From an uncultured Verrucomicrobiota bacterium (GTDB lineage Bacteria; Verrucomicrobiota; Verrucomicrobiia; Limisphaerales; UBA9464), in NCBI GenBank assembly GCA_903910585.1, contig CAIWAH010000230.1, positions 1 through 64,000 on the forward strand: a stretch of DNA of 64,000 nucleotides, in the 5' to 3' direction. The notes under the pieces are model-generated. The model was not told where the DNA came from. It was given only the letters and a program-made list of their open reading frames with translations, and searched no databases. Position 1 is the stretch's first letter. Every line of letters starts with the position of its first letter. Position numbers and translations under genes: made by a program. This document shows, one piece after another, positions 22,591 to 27,567 of this stretch.

Positions 22591-24065
22591 ATGCCCAACG
22601 TCTCCAACCTCGTCAAAACCATCCAGGACATCATGCGCAAGGACGCCGGCACCTACGGCGACGCGCAGCGCCTCGAACAGCTCGGCTGGATGTTCTTCCT
22701 GAAGATCTTCGACGACCGCGAAAAGGAGATGGAGCTCCTCCGCGACAATTACCGCTCGCCGCTCCCCAAACACCTCCGCTGGTCCACCTGGGCCACTGAT
22801 GACGAAGGCATCACCGGCGACGCCTTGCTCGACTTCGTCAACAACACCCTCCTGCCGAAGCTCAAGGCCATGACCGGCGGCGGCGACAAGATCGCCGGCC
22901 TCATTCGCATGGCTTTCGAGGATGCCAACAACTACATGAAGAACGGCACGTTGATGCGCCAGGTCATCAACAAGATCAACGGCATCGACTTCAACGCCTC
23001 CGATGATCGCCACATGTTCGGCGATATCTACGAAAAGCTCCTCAAGGACCTCCAGTCCGCGGGCAACGCCGGCGAGTTCTACACCCCGCGCGCCGTCACC
23101 CAGTTCATCGTCGAGCAGGTCAACCCCCGCCTCGGCGAGACCATCCTCGACCCCGCCTGCGGCACCGGCGGCTTCCTCGTCTGCGCCATCGAGCATCTGC
23201 GCAAGCAGGCCAAGACCGAGGCCCACAACGCACCATCCAGGACTGCTTCGCCGGCATCGAGAAAAAGCACCTGCCGCACGTCCTGTGCATGACCAATCTT
23301 CTTCTTCACGGCATCGACGTCCCCTCCAACGTCCGGCACGACAACACCCTCGCCCGCCCCCTGCGCGACTGGGGTCCGAAGGAGCGCGTGGACGTCATCG
23401 TCACCAACCCGCCCTTCGGCGGCATGGAGGAAGACGGCATCGAGTCCAACTACCCCGCCGAGTTCCGCACCCGTGAGACCGCCGACCTCTTCCTCGTGCT
23501 GCTCATGAAGCTGCTCAAGCCCGGCGGCCGCGCCGGCCTCGTCTTGCCCGACGGCACGCTCTTCGGCGAAGGCGTCAAGACCCGCATCAAGGAAGCCCTC
23601 CTCACCGAGTGCAACCTTCACACCATCGTCCGCCTGCCCAACGGCGTCTTCAATCCCTACACCGCCATCCGCACCAACCTCCTCTTCTTCACCAAGGGCG
23701 CGCCCACCACCCACGTCTGGTATTACGAGCACCCCTATCCGCCCGGCGCCAAGAGCTACAACAAGGGCAAACCGATCCGCATCGAGGAGTTCGAGGCCGA
23801 ACGCGCCTGGTGGGGCGATGAAAAAGACGGTTTCAAATCCCGGGTGGAAAACGAGCAGGCCTGGCGCGTCTCCATTGATCAGATCAAGGCCGGCAACTTC
23901 AACCTCGACCTCAAGAACCCGCACCACCCCGACACCGGCCCCGGCGACGTGGACCACCTCCTGCCCGAATACGAAAAGCTCCTCGCTCAAATCGCCGCCA
24001 CCCGCGCCGCGCTGAAACAGGAACTCCACCACGCCCTCACCGCCACCGCCGGGACAGCCGAATGA
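22591..24065 (+). pseudogene. hsdM: Type I DNA methyltransferase M subunit, single-base frameshift near 23229
   Basis: HsdM makes N6-methyladenine at the HsdS-chosen site and is required for both modification and restriction. The first frame gives the N-terminal HsdM domain (MPNVSNLVKTIQDIMRKD, LGWMFFLKIFDDREKE) and AdoMet motif I DPACGTGGFLV. After KTEAHN the frame fails at 23227-23231. One extra C there would give HNRTIQDCFAGIEKKHLPHVL and join the second frame, which holds the catalytic motif NPPFGG and the C-terminal region. The restored protein would be 491 residues, normal for HsdM. The second frame has its own ATG at 23289, but that fragment lacks motif I. The end overlaps the hsdS start (ATGA). 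Confidence 0.88.
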
Positions 24066-24150
24066 AGCTGGAAACGTTTTTCGAGAAGTTCGACCAGTTC
24101 GCCGACGCGCCCGATGCGGTGGCGAAGATGCGCGAGTTGGTCCGGCCTTT
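24062..24150 (+). pseudogene. Duplicated 5' fragment of hsdS
   Basis: This starts at the ATG that overlaps the hsdM stop (ATGA), which is the expected original hsdS start. About 86 bp (MKLETFFEKFDQFADAPDAVAKMRELV) repeat, with three substitutions, the start of the full hsdS at 24385. The copy then runs into a palindromic element and loses all HsdS similarity. The insertion therefore lies between two copies of the same hsdS start. Confidence 0.85.
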
Positions 24151-24375
24151 GAGCGCCAACGGCGCGTCCCATGCCAGCCTGGGGCAACGCCCCAGGAAAA
24201 CCATTCCCCAAAGATCCCAAGCCCTGAAGGGGCGGGCCAACGGATGGCGATGCGTGGCGGTTCGATGCGTGCGAGGAGCGAATTGGGTCGCCCTTTCAGG
24301 GCTTTGTTCGTTTGTGGATGCCATACCCAGGGCGTTGCCCTGGGCTGGTATGGGACGCCGCGTTGCGGCTGGGGG
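24151..24375. repeat. Inverted pair of three-hairpin elements (R1 and R2) inserted at the hsdS start
   Basis: R1 (about 24151-24237) and R2 (about 24286-24375) are inverted relatives of each other. Each has a central 8-bp stem: CCTGGGGC-AAC-GCCCCAGG in R1 and CCCAGGGC-GTT-GCCCTGGG in R2. Each also has a smaller stem (GCGCC-AAC-GGCGC in R1, GCCGC-GTT-GCGGC in R2). Between them are about 50 bases with no coding sense. The pair is flanked by direct copies of the first 86 bp of hsdS. This looks like a non-autonomous (MITE/PATE-like) element related to the transposase unit at 26723-27361. Confidence 0.78.
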
Positions 24376-24384
24376 AACCGCCCA

Positions 24385-26019
24385 ATGAAGCTGGAAACGT
24401 TTTTCGAGAAGTTCGACCGGTTCGCCGACGCGCCCGATGCGGTGGCGAAAATGCGCGAGCTGGTGCTGGACTTGGCGGTGAAAGGAAAGCTGACCGACCG
24501 CGACTTGAAGAAAGAGTCAGTTGATTCGAAATACTCCGACGAACCATCTTCCGACGTTTTACCGGCAAACTGGCGTCTCCTTAACTTCGGGAAGTTCTGC
24601 GACATTCAAGGCGGGAACCAGCCGCCCAAAAGTCAGTTTCGCGATGAACCAAAGCCAGGCTACGTGCGAATGTTCCAAATCCGCGACCTCGGCGAGAGGC
24701 CGGTCCCTGTCTACATTTCCAAGGAATCAACAAATCGGTTTTGCCGTGAGGGCGAAATTCTCATCGGCCGCTACGGCGCTTCCGTTGGCAAAGTCTTCTG
24801 GGCGCAGGACGGCGCATACAATGTCGCGCTTGCGAAGTTCATATTTCCCGAAGATGCCCTGCTTCCGCCATTCGCCTTCTGGGTGCTGAAGTCAGATTTC
24901 TTTCAGGCCGAGATCGCCGGAGCGAGCCGCTCGGCCCAAGCCGGATTCAATAAAGGCGACTTGGCCGCGATTGATTTCCCCCTCCCACCCCTCGCCGAGC
25001 AGAAGCGGATCGTGGCGAAGGTGGATGAGTTGATGGCGTTGTGTGATCGGCTGGAGGCGCAGCAGCAGGAACGGGAGACGCGGCACACCGCGCTCGCCCG
25101 CGCGTCGCTGGCCCGCTTTGCCGACGCGCCCACCCCGGCCAACCTCCATTTCATTTTCCACCCGTCCTACGCCATCCCCCCCGCCGACCTCCGCAAATCC
25201 ATCCTCACCCTCGCCGTCCAAGGCAAACTCGTCCCCCAAGACCCCAACGACGAACCGGCGGAGGTTCCCGCATTGTCGCGCGTCACAAAGTCCAAGGGCG
25301 AGCGAGAGGCTCCCTTCGAGTTGCCCGCCAATTGGAAGTGGGTGCAGTTGGGCCAAATCAGCGAGCTAATCAACGGCGATAGAAGCAAGAACTACCCAAA
25401 CAAGGCTGAGTATGTTCCCGAAGGCGTCGCGTGGATTAACACAGGACACATTGAGCCCGATGGAACGCTTTCCACCGAATGGATGCATTTCATCTCTCGA
25501 AAGAAGTTCGATTCACTTCGGAGCGGCAAGGTGCGTCCGGGAGATTTGGTTTATTGCCTGCGGGGCGCGACGCTTGGAAAGACGGCCATCATCACGCAAT
25601 ACGAAGAAGGCGCAGTCGCTTCGTCTCTGGTAATCATCCGCCTCATTCCAGCAGTCGAACCACGATACGCATATCGTTTCCTGACCAGCCCACTCGGGCG
25701 CGCACAGATCTTCCAATTCGACAATGGCTCCGCGCAGCCAAACCTGTCGGCGAACAACGTCAAAAAGTATTGGGTTCCACTCCCACCCCTCGCCGAACAA
25801 CGCCGGATCGTGGCCAAAGTGGAGCAACTGATGGCCTTGGTGGACGCGTTGGAAACGCAGCTCGCCGCCTCCCGCGCCACCGCCGCGAACCTCCTCTCCG
25901 CCCTCGTGGCCGAACTCACGTCTGGCGTTGCGTCCGCCTCGCCCAGCGCCAACGGCGCGCCCCAAACCAGCCCAGGGCAACGCCCTGGGAAACCGGCCAA
26001 CAAATCCCACAAGGGCTGA
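24385..26019 (+). CDS. hsdS: Type I restriction specificity subunit
   Basis: 544 residues. HsdS holds two target recognition domains and sets the DNA sequence that the M and R subunits act on. TRD1 begins near LPANWRLLNFGKFCDIQGGNQ and ends with the conserved PLPPLAEQKRIVAKVDELMALCD helix. TRD2 begins near LPANWKWVQLGQISELINGDRS and ends with PLPPLAEQRRIVAKVEQLMALVD. These repeated helices form the coiled-coil spacers. The last about 25 codons (from SANGAPQT to the stop) are not HsdS sequence: they lie in a palindromic element, and the stop TGA is in its third hairpin. The frame has no disabling change. Without an intact hsdM its function is uncertain. Confidence 0.9.
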   Translation: MKLETFFEKFDRFADAPDAVAKMRELVLDLAVKGKLTDRDLKKESVDSKYSDEPSSDVLPANWRLLNFGKFCDIQGGNQPPKSQFRDEPKPGYVRMFQIRDLGERPVPVYISKESTNRFCREGEILIGRYGASVGKVFWAQDGAYNVALAKFIFPEDALLPPFAFWVLKSDFFQAEIAGASRSAQAGFNKGDLAAIDFPLPPLAEQKRIVAKVDELMALCDRLEAQQQERETRHTALARASLARFADAPTPANLHFIFHPSYAIPPADLRKSILTLAVQGKLVPQDPNDEPAEVPALSRVTKSKGEREAPFELPANWKWVQLGQISELINGDRSKNYPNKAEYVPEGVAWINTGHIEPDGTLSTEWMHFISRKKFDSLRSGKVRPGDLVYCLRGATLGKTAIITQYEEGAVASSLVIIRLIPAVEPRYAYRFLTSPLGRAQIFQFDNGSAQPNLSANNVKKYWVPLPPLAEQRRIVAKVEQLMALVDALETQLAASRATAANLLSALVAELTSGVASASPSANGAPQTSPGQRPGKPANKSHKG

Positions 26020-26176
26020 AAGCCCGGCCCATATCATGGCGACGATCAATCGAACAACGTGTGCGTGGAATCCGGCCGTCGGTGGTCCGCCCCTTCAGGG
26101 CTCGGTGGCAATTTGGTCCTCGAATCCTGGGGCGGTGCCCCAGGCTGGCATGGGCCGGGCCTTTGGCCCTCCGGCG
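25942..26176. repeat. Inverted pair of three-hairpin elements (R3 and R4)
   Basis: R3 (about 25942-26030) overlaps the end of hsdS and has, in order, GCGCC-AAC-GGCGC, CCCAGGGC-AAC-GCCCTGGG and GGGCT-GAA-AGCCC. R4 (about 26087-26176) is the inverted counterpart with CCTGGGGC-GGT-GCCCCAGG and GGGCC-TTT-GGCCC. The spacer is about 55 bases and non-coding. R3 supplies the final codons and stop of hsdS. Confidence 0.78.
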
Positions 26177-26189
26177 CCGCGCCTTCCAC

Positions 26190-26341
26190 GCCTCGCCGAA
26201 CAACGCCGGACCGTGGCCAAAGTGGAGCAACTGATGGCCTTGGTGGACGCGTTGGAAACGCAGCTCGCCGCCTCCCGCGCCACCGCCGCGAACCTCCTCT
26301 CCGCCCTCGTCGCCGAGCTTACCTCCACGCCCGGCCTTGTT
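26190..26341 (+). pseudogene. Second copy of the hsdS 3' coiled-coil segment
   Basis: This repeats the last HsdS segment (LAEQRRTVAKVEQLMALVDAL...NLLSALVAEL) with only a few changes, one turning the usual I of RRIV into T. The frame is open through the following element to a TGA in R5's third hairpin. It has no start codon of its own with a ribosome binding site, so it is probably untranslated, but it could serve as a donor for recombination with hsdS. Confidence 0.82.
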
Positions 26342-26555
26342 CCCAGCGCCAACGGCGCGCCCCAAACCAGCCCAGGGCAACGCCCTGGGAAACCGCCCGC
26401 AAAACCGAATAAGGGCTGAAAGCCCGGCCCAACCGTGAACCCGCCGCAATCCTTTCGCACCCTTGGAACGCGCCTTCAGCGCTCGGGGGATTTTTCAACG
26501 ACCATACCTGGGGCGTTGCCCCAGGCTGGCTTGGGCCGGGCCTTTGGCCCTCCGG
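26342..26555. repeat. Inverted pair of three-hairpin elements (R5 and R6)
   Basis: R5 (about 26342-26430) carries GCGCC-AAC-GGCGC, CCCAGGGC-AAC-GCCCTGGG and GGGCT-GAA-AGCCC; R6 (about 26470-26555) carries the inverted set with CCTGGGGC-GTT-GCCCCAGG and GGGCC-TTT-GGCCC. The spacer contains GCCGCAATC, as does the transposase start at 26819, so the pair may be a deletion product of a transposase-bearing copy. That last point is inference from nine bases. Confidence 0.72.
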
Positions 26556-26566
26556 CATTCGCGTCA

Positions 26567-26722
26567 CCACCCCTCGCCGAACAACGCCGGATCGTGGCGA
26601 AAGTGGACGAACGGATGGCCTTGGTGGACGCGCTGGAAACCCAGCTCGCCACCGCCCGCACCACCGCCGCGAACCTCCTCTCCGCCCTCGTCGCCGAACT
26701 CACCACCCCGCCGGGCCTTGTC
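26567..26722 (+). pseudogene. Third copy of the hsdS 3' coiled-coil segment
   Basis: This repeats PLAEQRRIVAKVDERMALVDALETQLATARTTAANLLSALVAEL. It is more diverged than the second copy (several amino-acid changes such as EQL to ERM), suggesting an older duplication or a different source allele. The frame is open into the next element, where a TAA ends it before the third hairpin. Confidence 0.8.
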
Positions 26723-27361
26723 CCCAGCGCCAACGGCGCGTCCTCATCCCAGCCTGGGGCAACGCCCCAGGTCAAAGGCCGGAGAACACCATAAGGGCTG
26801 AAAGCCCGTGCCATCGCCATGCCGCAATCATTGAGCCTCGTCATCGTCCACGTCATCTTCTCCACGAAAGAACGCATCCCATTCCTCGACTCCGAAACGC
26901 GACCGAAACTCCACGCCTACCTCGCAACCGTCGCGCGTAATGCTGACTGCGAGGCATATCGCGTCGGCGGCGCGGCCGACCATGTTCACCTCGCGATTCG
27001 ATTATCGCGCACCATCACCATCGCGAAATTGGTGGAGACATTGAAAACGGCATCATCGAAATGGCTGAAAGCGCAATCGCCCGACCTCGCAGCGTTTTCG
27101 TGGCAACGCGGCTACGGATGTTTTTCGGTCGGCCCGTCGGACTTGGATGCGCTGCTGGCCTACATTAATGACCAGGAAAACCACCACCGCACGCGCACAT
27201 TTCAGGATGAGTTTCGGGTGTTCCTTAAAAAATACGGGGTGGAATATGACGAGGCGTATGTTTGGGATTGAACGATGGGGGGGCTTGCAGCCCTTTTCGG
27301 TGTTGTGGGATATTCCTGGGGCGTCGCCCCAGGCTGGAATGAGGCCGGGGCTTTGCCCCTC
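26723..27361. mobile_element. IS200/RAYT-like transposable unit bounded by hairpin elements R7 and R8
   Basis: R7 (about 26723-26812; CCTGGGGC-AAC-GCCCCAGG and GGGCT-GAA-AGCCC) and R8 (about 27279-27361, inverted; CCTGGGGC-GTC-GCCCCAGG and GGGGC-TTT-GCCCC) enclose a Y1 transposase gene. Subterminal hairpins recognised by a Y1 transposase are the hallmark of the IS200/IS605 group and of REP/RAYT systems. The other element pairs here have the same ends but no gene, so this is probably the autonomous member. Confidence 0.8.
26819..27271 (+). CDS. IS200/IS605-like Y1 (HUH) transposase, RAYT-like
   Basis: 150 residues, full length for a Y1 transposase. The HUH pair is H55 and H57 in ADHVHLAI. The nucleophilic tyrosine is Y115 in YINDQ, with the glutamine four residues later, as in IS608 TnpA. 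The family C-terminus (TFQDEFRVFLKKYGVEYDEAYVWD) is intact. These enzymes cut and join single-stranded DNA at sites next to hairpins and leave no target duplication. The ATG lies about 7 bases after R7. All catalytic residues are present, so it may be active. Confidence 0.9.
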   Translation: MPQSLSLVIVHVIFSTKERIPFLDSETRPKLHAYLATVARNADCEAYRVGGAADHVHLAIRLSRTITIAKLVETLKTASSKWLKAQSPDLAAFSWQRGYGCFSVGPSDLDALLAYINDQENHHRTRTFQDEFRVFLKKYGVEYDEAYVWD

Positions 27362-27387
27362 GTGTTCCACACGACAAGTTTGCTCTC

Positions 27388-27470
27388 ACCCCTCGCCGAA
27401 CCACGCCGGATCGTGGCCAAAGTGGAGCAACTGATGACCTTGGTGGACGCGTTGGAAACGCAGCTAGCCC
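27388..27470 (+). pseudogene. Fourth, truncated copy of the hsdS 3' segment
   Basis: This encodes PLAEPRRIVAKVEQLMTLVDALETQLA, then the similarity stops abruptly at a hairpin element (R9). It is the right-hand end of the hsdS duplication array. Confidence 0.78.
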
Positions 27471-27477
27471 CCTGGGT

Positions 27478-27567
27478 CGCGCTTTCAGCGCTCCGGGATG
27501 TTATTTGCCCCGATTCTTCGGGCGTTGCCCCAAGCTGGCCTGGGCCGGGCCTTTGGCCCGTCGGCAC
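27478..27567. repeat. Solitary, degenerate three-hairpin element (R9)
   Basis: Same orientation as R2, R4, R6 and R8 (GCGCTTTCAGCGC, GGGCC-TTT-GGCCC), but the central stem is imperfect (CTTCGGGC against GCCCCAAG). It has no right-hand partner and marks the end of the array. The remaining 120 bases to the next gene hold nothing I recognise. Confidence 0.65.

Follow-up and report, generated by a model that had tools for sequence, protein, structure and literature searches.

Why do short repeats crowded into and around a restriction-modification gene keep their hairpins while the letters of their stems change? The question is raised by nine repeat copies, R1-R9 (24150-27564), in a 64,000-nucleotide stretch of DNA from an uncultured Verrucomicrobiota bacterium (the window, by which we mean this whole stretch; the source genome assembly has 411 contigs and 5.33 Mb). 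Each copy is a half-unit of about 90 bp with three hairpins (H1, H2 and H3). We think it likely that these half-units are the ends of a small family of REP/REPIN-like mobile elements that move as single-stranded DNA, and that they are moved by the Y1 (HUH) transposase whose gene lies between R7 and R8. The half-units and the gene are as follows.

24150-24239, plus strand: R1, left half-unit (H1-H2-H3); sequence-only model E 4.5e-20; H2 CCTGGGGC, H3 of the GCCC type
24284-24372, minus strand: R2, right half-unit of the R1/R2 palindromic element; model E 1.1e-16; H2 CCCAGGGC
25943-26031, plus strand: R3, left half-unit, its start read as a C-terminal extension of hsdS; model E 6e-20; H2 CCCAGGGC
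26083-26172, minus strand: R4, right half-unit of R3/R4; model E 5.2e-18; H2 CCTGGGGC
26343-26431, plus strand: R5, left half-unit; model E 5.4e-19; H2 CCCAGGGC
26464-26553, minus strand: R6, right half-unit of R5/R6; model E 3.9e-19; H2 CCTGGGGC
26724-26813, plus strand: R7, left end of the gene-carrying (autonomous) copy; model E 2.2e-19; H2 CCTGGGGC, H3 GGGC
26819-27271, plus strand: Y1 (HUH) transposase gene, 150 amino acids, between R7 and R8; PF01797 E 9.6e-26; NF033573 67 bits (cutoff 55)
27274-27364, minus strand: R8, right end of the gene-carrying copy; nhmmer E 2.3e-7; H2 CCTGGGGC
27472-27564, minus strand: R9, lone degenerate half-unit; nhmmer E 2e-11; one of eight H2 pairs broken

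Read from the outside inward, a half-unit consists of H1 (5-bp stem; loop AAC, AAA or GAA), a tag that is mostly CCAT or CTAT, a conserved CAG, H2 (8-bp stem, loop mostly AAC), a variable spacer, H3 (5-bp stem, loop GAA) and a second tag. Because R1/R2, R3/R4 and R5/R6 are inverted pairs, each pair is one palindromic element and each half-unit one end of such an element; R7 and R8 flank the gene, and R9 is an unpaired half. The H2 palindrome CCNNGGGCNNNGCCCNNGG has eight exact matches in the window, compared to 0.07 expected from shuffles.

The first-pass annotation of this region had described paired, compensating changes in the stems, and sequence reading together with exact search bore out its account. 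H2 takes the form CCTGGGGC/GCCCCAGG in R1, R4, R6, R7 and R8 (at 24178, 26126, 26507, 26753 and 27315) and CCCAGGGC/GCCCTGGG in R2, R3 and R5 (at 24326, 25971 and 26371), two forms that differ by two compensated pairs, with the loop kept near-constant as AAC, GTT, GGT or GTC. A second stem, said to change in both arms, indeed reads GGGCC-TTT-GGCCC in R4, R6 and R9 and GGGGC-TTT-GCCCC in R8, with the further forms GCGCC-AAC-GGCGC in R1, R3, R5 and R7 and GCCGC-GTT-GCGGC in R2. The break noted in R9 is a single C.C mismatch among its eight H2 pairs (27516-27534), accompanied by one additional compensated pair, C-G to T-A. Overlooked was a third covarying hairpin, present in all half-units, which contrasts GGGCT-GAA-AGCCC with GCCCT-GAA-AGGGC. 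In the window itself, the two pair changes in H2 are adjacent and never occur apart, so that they amount to one event, a single linked difference that separates two subfamilies, and the window alone is therefore weak evidence.

Comparison across genomes provides strong quantitative evidence that REP-like DNA repeats keep their hairpin shape across phyla while the stem letters turn over. Half-units were gathered by a sequence-only profile blind to pairing, which avoids picking copies for being paired, and the resulting 231 unique halves at 83 loci were assessed against a null of the R-scape kind, with substitutions re-placed along a tree of 224 halves in 40 simulated alignments. Seven of the 18 stem pairs beat all 40 null alignments, and these same seven, all of them in stems, gave the top scores among 3,828 column pairs. 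Watson-Crick pairing at variable stem pairs of the 231 halves was 88-99%, compared to 49-61% expected by column composition (variable stem-pair columns: H1 7/15 and 6/16; H2 36/42, 33/45 and 32/46; H3 73/81 and 72/82). In an 80-sequence alignment, 98.6% of cells were paired versus 83.7% (standard deviation 0.6) in shuffles, compensated cells numbered 207 versus 71, and moving the partner by one to three columns lowered pairing to 23-55%; RNAalifold, unprompted, recovered the same three hairpins.

Since a tree derived from the hairpins is itself weak, stem changes were placed on the transposase protein tree as well, where compensated double changes outnumbered one-sided breaks (104 versus 80) and joint change made up 57% of events at true pairs versus 9% at unpaired control columns; the half-unit tree gave 109 double changes. 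Another 127 half-units, taken from 70 additional stretches, form a second set that depends partly on the first, in that some genomes are common to both and loci of the first set recur in at least two stretches (L181, L184); it showed pairing of 96.8% in H1 and 97.5% in H2 versus 83% when shuffled, H3 being mostly cut off. Four H2 combinations occur as perfect stems (CCTGGGGC in 68 copies, CCCAGGGC in 42, CCTAGGGC in 10 and CCCGGGGC in 7), and since all four are found across genomes, the compensated changes are independent; distinct perfect stems number 19 for H1, 15 for H2 and 9 for H3. Pairing is thus kept while stem letters change, therefore the fold itself is maintained, as had been suggested from the window, and this is true of hundreds of copies from several bacterial phyla. 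Counts of one-sided G.T versus A.C states, considered as an indicator of the folded strand, were dropped because the two sets were inconsistent.

What, then, might the hairpins be kept for? The 150-residue protein has PF01797 as its sole domain match and carries the motifs DHVH, WQ and YIxxQxxHH. Its AlphaFold2 model (mean predicted local distance difference test score 89) has a predicted fold whose best PDB matches are the TnpA proteins of IS608 and ISDra2, solved with hairpin DNA (Foldseek, 2vih E 4.7e-8), with a weaker structural match to 4ER8, E. coli TnpAREP bound to a REP hairpin. The genome has three transposase genes, 40-46% identical to the window copy, and all three lie between such hairpins, those at C398 being a divergent version. 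Among 82 transposase proteins 78 have Y---Q--HH, and 15 of the 82 genes have in-frame stops. At more distant transposase relatives (L128, L140), H2-like hairpins are longer with larger loops, beyond the reach of the profile.

The repeats and the gene are linked: of 80 loci with transposase relatives, 70 have half-units, and the lineages represented include Verrucomicrobiota, Acidobacteriota, Planctomycetota and Armatimonadota. Moreover, hairpin type follows transposase lineage. Halves flanking WQRG transposases have H3 GGGC in 72 of 76 cases and H2 CCT.. in 69 of 76, whereas those flanking WQAG transposases have H3 GCCC and H2 CCC.. in 10 of 10; the source genome holds both gene kinds, at C230 and C390, and R1-R6 are mosaic, mixing features of both subfamilies. 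The tags after H1 and H3 vary in concert, being identical in 45 of 109 cases (shuffled mean 21, maximum 33). This pattern of hairpin type and tag is what we would expect if a cognate protein recognized shape, loop and tag, and since hairpin type follows transposase lineage inside one genome, such a genome supplies natural pairs in which to study how a transposase acting on single strands reads hairpin and tag. Half-units were found in 46 of the 58 genomes searched (the source genome and relatives), reaching at least 74 per genome, and the transposase gene in 31; in the source genome gene-less copies are the majority, with 37 half-units versus three genes. A plasmid search returned only two distant relatives. 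One intergenic subfamily of the source genome (L052, L054, L055 and L057; contigs C217, C379 and C48) has an extra outer flank like CCGAACTCCGGA...TTTCGCACC beyond H1, which suggests a longer element.

We propose the following scenario. Every end would fold as single-stranded DNA into three short hairpins with short conserved tags between them, and the transposase would read hairpin shape, loop and adjoining tag, not the stem letters, which could drift because recognition ignores them as long as the arms pair. Full copies would encode the transposase, the gene-less palindromes would be movable only in trans, and the two H2 versions of the window would represent subfamilies matched to the two transposase lineages of the source genome. 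The first-pass annotation had left it between DNA and RNA as the folded molecule; because of the transposase linkage and the co-segregation of hairpin and transposase, thus mainly from context, we favor single-stranded DNA. Several points weigh against this scenario. Comparison to a same-genus genome (G001) gave no empty site, since gene order around the elements is not conserved there. The canonical GTAG guide is absent, with no guide or cleavage site identified. Many genomes have half-units with no gene detected, although their assemblies are incomplete. Common descent confounds the co-segregation with transposase lineage and could produce part of the pattern, and repair of a palindrome templated by its own arm could make paired changes without selection.

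The last point can be extended into an explanation by mutation alone, in which a quasi-palindrome, while being replicated, uses one arm as template for the other and no selection acts. Such repair needs short, GC-rich stems that lie near one another, which is what the half-units have, and double changes (109 on the half-unit tree) occur often in relation to one-sided states. However, the process gives no reason for tags and hairpin type to follow the transposase, and at H1 and H3 G-C to C-G flips are frequent while G.G or C.C intermediates are few; it may contribute, yet would leave selection possible, and as the whole explanation we judge it very unlikely. Most improbable, to our mind, is that recombination between the subfamilies shuffled a few fixed hairpin cassettes, with pairing under no lasting constraint. 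The fully linked double differences of the window H2 types and the mosaic R1-R6 would fit, but the 19, 15 and 9 perfect stems across genomes and the independent variation of the H2 pairs mostly refute it.

A different question is whether selection acts on RNA, the hairpins being kept as stabilizers of transcript 3' ends, attenuators or terminators. In favor of this, the elements lie at gene ends, some of them between convergent genes, and in the second set one-sided G.T states exceeded A.C states outside the closing pair (25 versus 8). On the other hand, H2 had no G.T excess in the first set, no Rfam match reached the gathering score in the window, and no T-run, which a terminator needs, follows the hairpins. 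The elements are symmetrical, therefore both strands would need to act, and the dependence of hairpin type on transposase lineage would be left unexplained. Taken together, we consider the RNA explanation quite unlikely and prefer the single-stranded DNA element moved by its transposase.

How does such an element compare to known systems? The nearest likeness is to REP/REPIN/BIME repeats with their RAYT (TnpAREP) transposases, or REPtrons (PMC2817692, PMC3116915, PMC3733652, PMC8266576): in both, short palindromes whose stems vary yet stay paired are arranged as inverted pairs, occur in many extragenic copies and flank a Y1 transposase gene of low copy number, and every transposase lineage goes with a repeat type of its own. 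For TnpAREP, recognition of a folded single strand and a guide tetranucleotide is established, and letter swaps in the upper stem are tolerated (PMC8266576). Unlike REPtrons, the present elements lack a GT[AG]G consensus at the hairpin's 5' foot; the tags by H1 and H3 are CCAT-, CTAT- or ACAA-like instead (ATGG-like when read on the opposite strand). They also have three hairpins in each half-unit, and the tyrosine motif is Y---Q--HH in place of the Y---NP of class 2. IS200/IS605 elements (IS608, ISDra2; subclass 1.1) share the Y1 transposase fold, as predicted here, and their ends are recognized as single-stranded hairpins, a mode of recognition that we infer for R1-R9 as well; they differ in having one imperfect hairpin per end rather than three, and near-identical copies rather than gene copies 40-46% identical with many gene-less palindromes.

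By motif match, the window transposase would fit TnpAY1 subclass 1.2 (DH[IV]H, WQ, Y---Q--HH, about 148 amino acids; Quentin et al. 2018, PMC6006769, Table 1), which it resembles also in its length of about 150 amino acids, low copy number and diverged copies within one genome. In that paper (PMC6006769) the subclass comes mainly from Cyanobacteria and Bacteroidetes and is reported to have neither REP nor IS200 structures at its ends, whereas the genes described here are flanked by covarying hairpins and are common in Verrucomicrobiota and Acidobacteriota. We regard R1-R9 as belonging to a REP-like element family with a transposase type not previously linked to such repeats, apparently of a class reported to lack them. 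Identity with the TIRYT elements of Acidobacteria (PMC3733652) was considered and dropped, since the published TIRYTs belong to subclasses 2.1, 2.2 and 2.5 according to PMC6006769; subclass 2.1 proteins have a median of 238 amino acids and a helix-turn-helix tail, unlike the 150-residue, PF01797-only protein of the window.

Lastly, the setting of the elements deserves attention. In the window they are hosted by a Type I specificity gene, parts of which are duplicated around them.

24051-24141, plus strand: second copy of the hsdS start, matching 24374-24464 at 93% identity; repeat family D6
24388-26019, plus strand: hsdS, Type I specificity subunit, hosting the elements; PF01420 E 1.6e-28
25780-25941, plus strand: hsdS 3' end, first of four direct copies; repeat families D1 and D2

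The other three 3'-end copies (26183-26341, 26564-26725 and 27383-27473) alternate with the elements, the two copies of the hsdS start flank R1/R2, and a short truncated hsdS start remains upstream. Elements of the closest clade lie at gene ends, often those of Type I restriction-modification genes: in the source genome they are in hsdS (window), at hsdM or hsdS (C126/L009, C265/L022) and inside the hsdR C-terminal domain (C96; L005/L193), and among 150 flanking reading frames at the 80 transposase loci Methylase_S (11) and N6_Mtase (7) are the two commonest families. A direct duplication of a host-gene end flanks the element at about 11 of 80 tested clusters, compared to 5 of 200 random flank pairs. 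In the window (25780-27473) and at loci L061, L062, L063, L066, L067, L068, L072, L075, L077, L115 and L130 the duplicated 3' ends align over about 36-190 bp at 80-99% identity; the genes are mostly hsdS or hsdM, with a glycyl-tRNA-synthetase-like and a Vsr-like gene also represented. Where hsdS is native and element-free, the gene ends no more than a few codons away from the insertion point. Orphan copies of the hsdS 3' end without a hairpin element are present at L218 and L221, and so something other than the element may make the duplication. A bolder reading would make this a REP-like system that has a transposase class of its own and three hairpins at each end, prefers Type I restriction-modification genes and duplicates the host-gene end around itself (about 85-215 bp). 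In its entirety this seems to us doubtful; if it were so, such insertion and duplication would remodel hsdS and hsdM loci. The neighboring hsdM (22591-24065) is split into reading frames of 233 and 258 amino acids, both N6_Mtase, by an apparent frameshift near 23,230-23,290 that is either a sequencing error or a real break.

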